Positions 8,904 through 23,034 of a DNA stretch of 34,745 nucleotides are shown piece by piece; the first letter of the stretch is position 1; each line of letters begins with the position of its first letter. Origin of the DNA: Methanobacteriota archaeon (GTDB lineage: Archaea > Methanobacteriota_B > Thermococci > Methanofastidiosales > Methanofastidiosaceae). Made by a program: the position numbers and the translations under genes. The stretch lies in the NCBI GenBank assembly GCA_023622545.1, contig JAMNZA010000072.1, positions 1-34,745 on the forward strand, given 5' to 3'. The notes below the pieces were generated by a model, which did no database searches, was not told the origin of the DNA, and was given only the letters and a program-made list of their open reading frames with translations.

Positions 8904-10124
8904 TTGGGACAAGCTGAAGTAAATATAGGTCTTGTAGGCCATGTAGACCATGGTAAAACTACATTAACGAGAGCTCTATCCGGAGTCTGGACTGACAAAC
9001 ATAGCGAAGAGCTTAGAAGAGGTATCACTATAAGACTTGGTTATGCTGATATCGAATTTAGAAAATGTAAAGCATGTGAAGGAGTCGAGGCATATACTAC
9101 AGAAAAAACTTGTCCGAAATGCGGTGGAGAAACTGAAGTATTAAGAAAAGTTTCATTTGTTGATGCACCAGGGCATGAAACGTTAATGGCAACAATGCTT
9201 TCAGGAGCGGCAATAATGGATGGTGCGATATTAGTTATTGCAGCAAATGAAAAATGCCCACAACCACAAACAAGAGAACACCTAATGGCCTTAAATATTG
9301 TTGGAATTAAGAATATTGTAATTGCGCAAAATAAAATAGAGCTAGTTTCAAAGGAAAAAGCTATTGAGAATTATAATCAAATTAAGAACTTCATTAAAGG
9401 AACTGTCGCAGAAAATGCTCCTATTATCCCAATTTCAGCTCAACATAGAGTAAATATAGATTACTTGATTAAATCAATTCAAGAAGTAATAAAGACGCCG
9501 AAAAGAGATCCAGAAAAACCCCCAGTTATGTACGTTGCAAGATCTTTTGATACAAATAGGCCAGGAACGGCTCCAGAAGACTTAAAGGGCGGTATTTTAG
9601 GGGGTTCTCTAATACAAGGAAAGTTAAAAGTTGGGGATAAAATAGAGATAAGGCCTGGATTTGAGAAAGTAGAACAAAATAAGAAAGTTTTTAAGCCAAT
9701 TATAACTTTCATTTCAAGTTTAAATGTTAGTAATGATTCAGTTGAAGAAGCTTTACCAGGAGGCCTTCTTGGAGTTGGTACTTTTCTTGATCCTGCGGTA
9801 ACTAAATCTGACACGCTAGCCGGTAGTATTTTGGGGTATCCAGATCAACTTCCTAATGTTTGGGAAACATTGTCTCTTGAAGTTCATCTTTTAGATCGAG
9901 TAGTTGGAACAGAGGAAGAAACTACCGTGGAACCTATTAGGCCAAAAGAAATGCTTCTCCTAAATGTTGGAACTGCAAAAACAATTGGTACAACTACAAA
10001 AGTAGGAAAAGTTACAGAATTAATTTTAAAACTTCCAGTATGTTCTATTGCCGGTGAAAGAGTAGCTATCAGTAGAAGGGTAGGGGCAAGATGGAGACTA
10101 ATAGGGTACGGAATAATAAAATAA
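8904..10124 (+). CDS. eif2g: Translation initiation factor aIF2 subunit gamma
   Basis: [25 protein letters not shown], zinc knuckle CKACEG...[32 protein letters not shown] start behind AAGGAG. Confidence 0.96.
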
Positions 10125-13918: not shown

Positions 13919-14080
13919 ATGAAGATGAAAATCTGTCCAAAATGTAATACTTATACCATGGAGGACATATGTTCTGTGTGCAAAGTTCCTACAGTTAATC
14001 CTCATCCACCCAAGTTTTCACCTGAGGATAAATATGGAAAATACAGAAGAATAATAAAAAAAGAGAGTGGAGTGTTATGA
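13919..14080 (+). CDS. nop10: H/ACA RNP protein Nop10
   Basis: [48 protein letters not shown]; track start (13853) lies inside aIF2-alpha, ATG at 13919 preferred. Confidence 0.94.
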
Positions 14081-14856
14081 AAGAAACATTTATTATTGAA
14101 GAGAAAAAGGATTTCAAACTTGACAATCCGATATTCATAGAAGGACTTCCTGGGATAGGACTTGTTGGAAAATTAGCGGCAGATCACCTTATTCAGGAAC
14201 TTAAAGCAGTTAAATTTGCTGATTTATATTCACCAAGATTTCCTCATCAAGCGTTAGTTGAGAAGGATTCAACAATGCGTTTAATGAAAAATGAATTTTA
14301 TTATTATACAGGAGGAAAAAGAGATATCCTATTTCTTTCAGGAGATACCCAACCTCCTCCTACAGATGCTTTTGGGCATTATGAGATTTCCGCATCAATA
14401 TTAGACTTTATTGAAAAGTTTGGAGTGAAAGAAATGTTCACTCTTGGCGGGTATTCAACTGGAGGGTATCCTGTAAAGGAGCCAAAGGTATTAGGCGCAG
14501 CTTCAGATATAGAAACTGTTGAAAAATACAAGGACAAGAATATTGTTTTCAGAGAGGATCCTGGATCTGCCATAGTCGGTGCTTCTGGACTTCTTATTGT
14601 ATTGGGAAAGCTTAGAGGAATGAAAGGATTATGCCTTTTAGGAGAATCGCCAGGATATATAATAGATGCCAAAGCTTCAAAGGCAGTTTTACAGATTCTA
14701 GTAGATATATTAGAACTAGATATTAGCATGGAAGAGCTCGATAAAAGAGCTGAAGAGACTGAAAAGGCACTTTCAAAGATACAGGAAATGCAGAAAAACA
14801 TGACTGAATATCAGACATTGCCTCCTGGAAACGAAGAAACAGGATATATAAGATAA
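14077..14856 (+). CDS. PAC2 family (proteasome assembly chaperone-like) protein
   Basis: [70 protein letters not shown]. Confidence 0.9.
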
Positions 14857-14895: not shown

Positions 14896-15804
14896 TCATT
14901 TTGTAGATAAATTAATGTTTTGAGTATTCTTACCCCTATTCATTATGCATCCAATAATCTTTTCATAGATGTCGGGATAGCTAATATCTTCCCCTCCATC
15001 TAGAGAAGGATTATCATTTACCTCTATAACATAAAGACTACCATTATTTTCTTTTATATCCACACCATAAAGCCCATTACCAATAGCGTTCCCGGCTCTT
15101 ATACCAAGATCGATAATGTCTTGAGGAACTTCTTCTTTTGGGACACTTACAACATCACAGTAGACTAAGTGACCGTTTACAGAGGCTTGGATTTTAAATG
15201 TTTCATTAGGGATTATATATTTACAAGCATATAACAACTCACCATCAAGAACCCCGATTCTCCAATCAAATTTACTATCAATGTATTCTTGTACAACAAC
15301 CCAGTCTGAGAGCTTTATGAATCTCCTTGATACTTTTATGAATTCTTCTTTTGTATATACTCTTTCTACTCTTGCAGAGAATGAAGTTGACGGTTCTTTC
15401 AGAATCATTGGTGGATTAAACATTTTGAATATTTCTTCAAGATTCTCTAAGGTAACTTCACCTTTTTTTATAAAGATTGTTTTCGGCATTGGTACATCTT
15501 TTTTCATAAGATGCAGATACATATTCACCTTGTCAGAACATATCCTAATCGAAGTGGGATCGTCTATTACAGGTACACCATTCAATTCGGCTATTCTTGC
15601 AGCAACGTAGCTTATATTCATTGAGTCTGTTCTAGACCTAATGAAAAGTCCATCAAGCCCCGAAATTTTTTTAATTTCTGTGGGAAAGATAAAATAGGCT
15701 TGATGTCCCATGTTCTCTGCTTCATCTCTGAATTTAATTAGTGAGATAAGTTGCACAGAACTACTTAGAGTTTGCCTATCAACAAAAATTCCTAATTTCC
15801 CCAT
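14896..15804 (-). CDS. RimK-like ATP-grasp ligase (catalytic half of a split RLAN-RimK protein)
   Basis: GLFIRSRTDSMNISYVAARIAELNGVPVIDDPTSIRICSDKVNMYLHLMKKDVPMPKTIFI, MILKEPSTSFSARVERV, YGVDIKENNGSLYVIEVNDNPSLDGGED. Confidence 0.88.
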   Translation of the reverse strand: MGKLGIFVDRQTLSSSVQLISLIKFRDEAENMGHQAYFIFPTEIKKISGLDGLFIRSRTDSMNISYVAARIAELNGVPVIDDPTSIRICSDKVNMYLHLMKKDVPMPKTIFIKKGEVTLENLEEIFKMFNPPMILKEPSTSFSARVERVYTKEEFIKVSRRFIKLSDWVVVQEYIDSKFDWRIGVLDGELLYACKYIIPNETFKIQASVNGHLVYCDVVSVPKEEVPQDIIDLGIRAGNAIGNGLYGVDIKENNGSLYVIEVNDNPSLDGGEDISYPDIYEKIIGCIMNRGKNTQNINLSTK

Positions 15805-16579
15805 TTTCTATCCCAGTTTCAACTCTTGTTTGAAATTCTTCTTTTTCATCGTTCGATAGCTCTGATCTTTTTATGGGTGATATAGAGGAAAGATAATATT
15901 TCTCTCCATCATATATTAGGATTATCTTAGCAACTGGCACCTCAAATACTTCATATATCTTTTTAAGAAGTGCACATATCTCCGGATCTGTTGTGGTATT
16001 CTTCCCAAATAGAGTGGTGAAGGTCTTTATTTCTGCATTTGGTGGCAATCTCTGGAAGCAGAAAGGGTATTTACCTGAATGAGTTACTTTCTTTATTGCT
16101 TCTTTTGCAGTTTCTAAATCGTATGCAACTTCGTATCTTGAAGAATCAGAGTAGTAGTTTATTCCATATATCATTGATGGCACAGGACAGTATGTGTCAG
16201 AGATTCCCCATTCAGATACAGGTATTCCTGTCATCTGAGCTTTTGTAAGGCATATAGGTATTACATAAGCATCAAGTATTTGATCACTACTTGGTGTTAT
16301 TTTGTACCCATTTTGATTTTCTCTTAATACTATCCTATAGTAAGACTCTGTCTTGTAATGGTATTCATTACTTAAAACAAATAGGTTGTTACCTGAGTAC
16401 ATCTCAGTTATATCTTTATCAAAAAGACTTATTTTTTTATGCAAATTTTCTGCACCTTTTTTATGGGTGTTAACCCTGGTATCATTATGTGCCTCTAAAA
16501 AATTAACAAATGGCATTACAAAATTTTCAATCGTTTTTACATCACAACTATTTGACGAATCATCATCTTCTGATTCCAT
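15779..16579 (-). CDS. RLAN (RimK-like ATP-grasp N-terminal) domain protein, partner of the ATP-grasp ligase
   Basis: NLFVLSNEYHYKTESYYRIVLRENQNGYKITPS resembles the RLAN signature; C-terminal FGKNTTTDPEICALLKKIYEVFEVPVAKIILIYDGEKYYLSSISPIKRSEL matches (from memory) the linker part of fused RLAN-RimK proteins; overlaps the ATP-grasp start. Confidence 0.78.
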   Translation of the reverse strand: MESEDDDSSNSCDVKTIENFVMPFVNFLEAHNDTRVNTHKKGAENLHKKISLFDKDITEMYSGNNLFVLSNEYHYKTESYYRIVLRENQNGYKITPSSDQILDAYVIPICLTKAQMTGIPVSEWGISDTYCPVPSMIYGINYYSDSSRYEVAYDLETAKEAIKKVTHSGKYPFCFQRLPPNAEIKTFTTLFGKNTTTDPEICALLKKIYEVFEVPVAKIILIYDGEKYYLSSISPIKRSELSNDEKEEFQTRVETGIENGEIRNFC

Positions 16580-16604
16580 AAAAACAGCCAGCTGGGATTT
16601 CTCC

Positions 16605-16847
16605 CTAGATCATCTCCATGTTTATATATTGCGTAGAATTCACCAAGATACTTCTAAAGTAATTTTTGTATACAAACAATATTGTTAAAGAGACCAGTAC
16701 AAAGAATAGAAAGTTCAAAATGGTAAAGTCATTTTCAATATTATATTTTAATAAGAAATCTGTGTTAAAAACAGTGGAGATTGTTTTAGAAATAATAGCT
16801 AGTTCGCTTAGAATAACTAATGTAGATAATTTCCACATTGGATTCAT
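16605..16847 (-). CDS. Small two-TM membrane protein (putative)
   Basis: MNPMWKLSTLVILSELAIISKTISTVFNTDFLLKYNIENDFTILNFLFFVLVSLTILFVYKNYFRSILVNSTQYINMEMI; start chosen at the ATG about 9 nt after AAGGAA; same strand as and just upstream of the RLAN gene. Confidence 0.45.
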   Translation of the reverse strand: MNPMWKLSTLVILSELAIISKTISTVFNTDFLLKYNIENDFTILNFLFFVLVSLTILFVYKNYFRSILVNSTQYINMEMI

Positions 16848-17005
16848 CTTTGTTTGTTCCTTGTCAAGCAATTAGTGAGTGCAATGGACTATCCATTATA
16901 TCTAAACTTGAATATCAACAACTACTTTTAAACCTTTCTATTGCTCACAGTAGGAAATCAACAAGAGTTAAATAATTAGGAATATTAGAAAAAGGTGGTG
17001 AATAC

Positions 17006-22260: not shown

Positions 22261-23034
22261 ATGGGCGACATTGATAATCATATTCATGTTTATGAAAAAA
22301 AGAAAGATATTAAGAATCTGAAGCATGAAAGAGTAGAACGAGATTCAGAAATATTTAAAGTCAGAGATGAAGTTTTTGATCAATCAACAAGACTTACTCT
22401 CTTTAAACTAATGAATAACGGATATATTGAATCTTTAAACGGCGAGATTGCAACAGGAAAAGAGGCAAATGTCTTTTATGGAAAGAATCGCGAAGGAAAA
22501 GAAATTGCCGTTAAAATATACAGAATTGCAACTTCTAACTTCAATAAGATGTATTCTTATCTCGTGGGCGATCCAAGATTTTATTATACTAAAAAAGATA
22601 AGAGAAGTACTGTATTTGCATGGGCAAAAAGAGAATTTAAGAATCTAAAAACTGCAAGTGAAGTGATAGATGTTCCAAAACCTATTATAGTAAGGAATAA
22701 TGTTTTGATAATGGAGTTTTTAGGTAAAAATATGAAATCATATCCAACTCTTAAGGATAAAAAACCAAAAGATCCTGAAAAAGAGTTTAACTTAATAATC
22801 GAAAATATAAATAAGCTTTACAAAGCTGGCTTAATACACGCTGATTTAAGTGAATACAACATATTGATGGGCAAGAAGATTTATTTCATTGATTTTGCCC
22901 AAGGGACAATAAAGAATAACGTCATGGCCCAAGATTTCCTTAAAAGAGACGTTGAGAACATTACAAGATTTTATTCAAATTATATAGAAGTTTCAGATGT
23001 CAACGAAACACTGAAGGGGATATTAAATGAGTGA
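22261..23034 (+). CDS. rio1: RIO1-family serine protein kinase
   Basis: ATGKEANVFYGKNREGKEIAVKIYRIATSNF, RDPRFYY-like GDPRFYY, LIHADLSEYNIL, IYFIDFAQGT. Confidence 0.94.
   Translation: MGDIDNHIHVYEKKKDIKNLKHERVERDSEIFKVRDEVFDQSTRLTLFKLMNNGYIESLNGEIATGKEANVFYGKNREGKEIAVKIYRIATSNFNKMYSYLVGDPRFYYTKKDKRSTVFAWAKREFKNLKTASEVIDVPKPIIVRNNVLIMEFLGKNMKSYPTLKDKKPKDPEKEFNLIIENINKLYKAGLIHADLSEYNILMGKKIYFIDFAQGTIKNNVMAQDFLKRDVENITRFYSNYIEVSDVNETLKGILNE

Follow-up and report, generated by a model that had tools for sequence, protein, structure and literature searches.

The window analysed here is a 34,745-nucleotide stretch of DNA from Candidatus Methanofastidiosum, belonging to a genome that is 68% complete, and the same-genus relatives with which it was compared are also Candidatus Methanofastidiosum MAGs. 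On its minus strand lie two overlapping genes, ORF1 and ORF2, which are read in different frames and converge with a gene at 14077-14856 (Table 1). An earlier, sequence-only reading of this DNA had described both ORFs, a start of ORF2 inside ORF1 and a G4 tract at the junction, and its coordinates and strands are borne out. On the coding strand the junction reads GAA AAT GGGG AAATTAGGAATTTTTGTTGATAGG; dropping one G on paper gives ...TGIENGKLGIFVDRQTL, as that reading had claimed.

Table 1. Features of the ORF1/ORF2 locus, in window coordinates
Feature	Position	Strand	Remarks
ORF1	15779..16579	minus	266-aa RLAN protein; predicted to be a degenerate (pseudo) ATP-grasp subunit
ORF2	14896..15804	minus	RimK-type ATP-grasp ligase, 302 aa; predicted catalytic subunit
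ORF1/ORF2 overlap, 26 nt, dual-coded in different frames	15779..15804	minus	24/26 bases invariant (8 species)
G4 tract, including the G of the ORF2 ATG	15799..15802	minus	GGGA in G004
GGGAT, Shine-Dalgarno-like, 5 nt 5' of the ORF2 ATG	15810..15814	minus	invariant in 8 species
T5 run just before the ORF1 stop	15784..15788	minus	alternative possible +1 slip site, from sequence only
Small membrane-protein ORF directly upstream of ORF1	16605..16871	minus	both ends out of frame relative to relatives

In the relatives, ORF1 is preceded by a fast-evolving membrane protein of 85-99 aa, which starts with MET.L and ends with GEFYA(I/R). Small gaps put the corresponding ORF of the window out of frame at both ends, and G004, one of the related genomes, has no clear counterpart upstream of ORF1. 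The ORF1 leader (16580-16617, minus strand) contains GGAG and, after it, a mini-ORF of the form Met-X-stop, ATG ATC TAG in the window and ATG GTG TAG or ATG ATT TAA in relatives; the mini-ORF is present in 5/7 cases, as is a hairpin of the GGGAGAAATCCC type. Neither the leader nor the junction gave an Rfam match to a known RNA element.

The profile search suggested in the sequence-only reading places ORF1 in the RLAN family (PF14401), with 37 bits against a gathering cut-off of 25 (HMMER), and the same model was matched by all seven ORF1 members scanned. The match lies mainly in residues 182-251 and covers well only the C-terminal half of RLAN; the N-terminal 45 residues of ORF1 are variable in the genus. 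ORF2 scores 51.6 bits with the RimK model PF08443 (gathering cut-off 21), and its metal-binding motif VIEVNDNPS is invariant in the genus (EVNDNPS in 7/7 sequences). It matches the models of the RimK, LysX, ArgX and MptN amide ligases over the whole grasp domain, but falls below every curated cut-off: 91.1 bits with TIGR00768 (RimK family alpha-L-glutamate ligase; cut-off 143.4), and 72, 71 and 49 bits with the MptN, LysX and CofF equivalogs (cut-offs 350, 276 and 300). The substrate can therefore not be read from the family.

The two-gene arrangement in the genus and its single-chain relatives in bacteria

A comparison of close relatives for split and fused forms, another check that the sequence-only reading had suggested, found only the split form. 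In all eight genomes of the genus with a complete junction, several of them separately deposited MAGs, RLAN is encoded by a separate ORF rather than as the N-terminal domain of an ATP-grasp chain, and the frame offset, the ORF2 ATG and the overlap are the same; this count leaves out G001 and G005, where there is a contig end or unrelated upstream sequence. As eight genomes share the frame relation and the ATG, the split must predate the radiation of the genus. The break coincides with a boundary between domains: the final predicted helix of ORF1 stops at residue 258, and the overlap begins with residue 259. RLAN was found in 8 of the 115 genomes examined from the phylum, all eight inside the genus; a scan of genome contigs, with whole-genome searches limited to this phylum, recovered no relatives beyond the genus, and viral contigs yielded none. 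In G005 (locus L008, G005:C77, 1-440) the ORF2 homologue begins at about residue 20 after an unrelated coding sequence, which is either an assembly chimera or a real truncation.

Plasmid-encoded proteins of Azospirillum brasilense, Legionella adelaidensis, Pseudomonas aeruginosa, Tistrella mobilis and Aeromonas caviae match ORF2 over 87-96% of length at 28-37% identity. These homologues are single chains in which RLAN is followed by a RimK-type ATP-grasp domain, the order of RLAN, linker and ATP-grasp that the sequence-only reading had given for bacteria. In profile comparisons ORF2 aligns with the bacterial ATP-grasp part along its entire length (35% identity, E 2e-47), and residues 65-254 of ORF1 align with the bacterial RLAN (P=7e-5); a tblastn search with ORF1 against plasmids gave no match. 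The two versions thus share the order of RLAN and grasp, but the bacterial one is a single chain with a linker of ~10 further residues between the end of RLAN and the first grasp strand, whereas the archaeal one is divided over two ORFs and carries ~52 residues in the middle of ORF1 that are absent from bacterial RLAN. In the alignment EIRNFC, the in-frame tail of ORF1, falls opposite the WR(E/D)P terminus of the bacterial domain. What is found here is a genus-wide split of an already known bacterial enzyme.

The overlap and its translation

Conservation within 1.15 kb peaks at the 26-nt overlap (24/26 bases), with windows shifted by a few bases scoring 25. Of the ORF2 codons inside the overlap, 5 of 7 are invariant at silent sites, compared with 25 of 203 outside it (Fisher P=7e-4). 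An overlap of 34 nt between aIF2gamma and a PIN-domain gene (window 10091-10124), five kb away and present in every copy examined from the genus, served as a control; in the same eight genomes its PIN-frame codons are invariant in 5/5 cases, compared with 11/72 outside it. As this ordinary overlap shows equal conservation at silent sites, double coding alone explains the pattern at ORF1/ORF2, and the reading of silent-site conservation as a sign of frameshifting was dropped as unnecessary. The GGGAT element before the ORF2 ATG is invariant even though GGG makes up 17% of the Gly codons, and it resembles the element preceding an overlapping gene at 23027. The tail of ORF1 is conserved in its own frame, with IRNFC invariant; its stop is not fixed, TGA being replaced in two species by CGA or AGA followed by TAG, one codon later.

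We consider it likely that the pair is a genuine counterpart, in two genes and two subunits, of the single-chain RLAN-RimK amide ligase of bacteria. A single message would give rise to ORF1 and ORF2 as two distinct polypeptides, with ORF2 initiating at the conserved ATG inside the end of ORF1, presumably aided by GGGAT, and carrying the N-terminal peptide MGKLGIFVDR. Separate initiation is favoured because of the lack of RNA structure at the junction (see below), the mobile stop of ORF1, the invariant GGGAT and the behaviour of the control overlap. The sequence-only reading had offered a two-subunit ligase with translational coupling; its two-polypeptide part fits the data best, whereas strict coupling is uncertain. 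Only spacings between -8 and +10 nt are taken to make termination-reinitiation coupling likely (PMC10666635), and since the 26-nt overlap lies outside this range, strict coupling of this kind is not claimed for ORF1 and ORF2. Archaeal pairs of overlapping subunit genes for which termination-reinitiation is described are likewise adjacent on the same strand and keep their overlap in evolution, but the usual overlap in these pairs is 1-4 nt (PMC10666635). By analogy with the fused bacterial relatives, the two products probably associate physically.

The sequence-only reading had also raised a one-base homopolymer error, by which the assembly would have broken an ordinary fused gene. Although the window MAG is incomplete and its small upstream ORF shows frame breaks relative to relatives, the probability of such an error is negligible: the exact frame relation recurs in eight genomes, and in G004 the tract reads GGGAAAA in place of GGGGAAA (G3A4 for G4A3), so that the homopolymer differs at equal length and the frame is kept. 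This candidate is accordingly excluded. It is also highly improbable that ORF1, or the pair as a whole, is decaying and no longer functional. The restriction of the good RLAN match to one half of the domain and the variable N-terminus of ORF1 speak for decay, but identities of 63-90% are maintained for both proteins within the genus, and in ORF2 the amino acid is retained at most variable codons and the ATP-grasp motifs do not vary.

A programmed +1 frameshift, on GGG-G or on TTT-T, would yield a fused protein, either alone or beside the two separate ones, and we regard it as unlikely. Inspection of the sequences reveals candidate shift-prone sites in all eight (GGG-G or GGG-A, plus TTT-T), at which a GGG or TTT codon in the P site might pair anew after slipping by +1; moreover, the entire overlap stands out by its conservation, the bacterial relatives are fused, and for the haloarchaeal virus HSTV-2 a +1 frameshift has been proposed (PMC8211752). 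The resulting fusion of ~63 kDa would contain the predicted junction peptide IENGKLGIFVDR, or NGEIRNFVDR if the slip occurred at the T5 site. However, the displacement of the ORF1 stop by one codon in two species is ill suited to a stop-dependent shift, ORF2 is provided with a conserved ATG and a Shine-Dalgarno-like element of its own, and the ordinary aIF2gamma/PIN overlap is equally conserved at silent sites. A slip on the G4 tract would, in addition, drop the ~10-residue linker of the bacterial type along with the conserved tail of ORF1. Nor was any stable or covarying stimulatory RNA structure found at the junction, where z-scores ranged from +0.6 to -1.7 in six species and a single pair covaried. 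The programmed -1 frameshifting of Sulfolobus fucA1 (PMC8211752) is similar in that an archaeal enzyme is encoded in two overlapping frames. The ORF1/ORF2 case differs from it in requiring a +1 shift, in lacking any visible stimulatory element and in the conserved start that belongs to the second ORF itself. The proposal of frameshifting made from the sequence thus gains no positive support. As a stable gene boundary placed on a homopolymer, the junction is instead a counter-example, mimicking a sequencing error or a frameshift site.

RLAN as a candidate decayed ATP-grasp domain

The main interest of the probable two-subunit ligase lies in ORF1, whose predicted structure suggests that RLAN may be a decayed ATP-grasp domain. 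ORF1 was modelled alone in two AlphaFold2 runs without templates, which gave modest confidence (mean pLDDT 53 and 61, pTM 0.55 and 0.68). The PDB matches listed for both models are all ATP-grasp ligases (D-Ala-D-Ala ligase, RimK, ArgX, PsnB and L-amino acid ligase), the best E among the matches listed being 2e-5 and 7e-5, with TM by query of at most 0.44. The order of elements corresponds by eye between ORF1 EICALLKKIYEVFEVPVAKIILIYDGEKYYLSSISPI and ORF2 IIDLGIRAGNAIGNGLYGVDIKENNGSLYVIEVNDNP, but the catalytic metal-binding residues are missing from ORF1, which in a manual alignment has YYLSSISPI opposite LYVIEVNDNPS of ORF2. Compared as profiles, bacterial RLAN and archaeal ATP-grasp narrowly outscored all of 200 column shuffles, and the remaining pairings gave weaker results; the archaeal ORF1 profile against ATP-grasp was not significant and did not go beyond the shuffles. 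Sequence and profile searches of the PDB gave no solved relative of RLAN.

We give about even weight to the proposal, drawn from these models, that RLAN is a degenerate ATP-grasp and that the pair, one RimK-like subunit being active and the other catalytically dead, forms a heteromer that would have arisen by duplication, with the genes kept apart and ~52 extra residues present in Methanofastidiosum and a single chain in bacteria. In the two-subunit ligase ORF2 would be the catalytic subunit, in which, judging from its family, ATP would activate a carboxylate as an acyl-phosphate that is then joined to an amine. ORF1, perhaps a decayed ATP-grasp and devoid of the metal-binding EVNDNP motif, might be a partner subunit that helps with substrate binding or dimerisation, an arrangement that could be likened to a heterodimer of active and inactive RimK. 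Our literature search found almost nothing on the RLAN domain, which in the data searched had previously been without a structural explanation, and the pseudo-ATP-grasp idea would provide it with a concrete, testable role. The natural split should also make it straightforward to express and purify RLAN on its own and to test it separately from the ligase.

Some of the bacterial copies adjoin a GNAT-DUF3335 protein or a glutamate-cysteine ligase family protein, and these neighbours point to peptide or amino-acid chemistry. Searches of ten Methanofastidiosum genomes recovered neither DUF3335 nor GCS2, and the archaeal substrate may therefore differ. At two of the bacterial loci (L044, 3136-4362, and L047, 3086-4324) the RLAN-RimK gene immediately follows a fusion gene of the GNAT-DUF3335 (C39-peptidase-like) type, a neighbour that suggests a peptide-related pathway.
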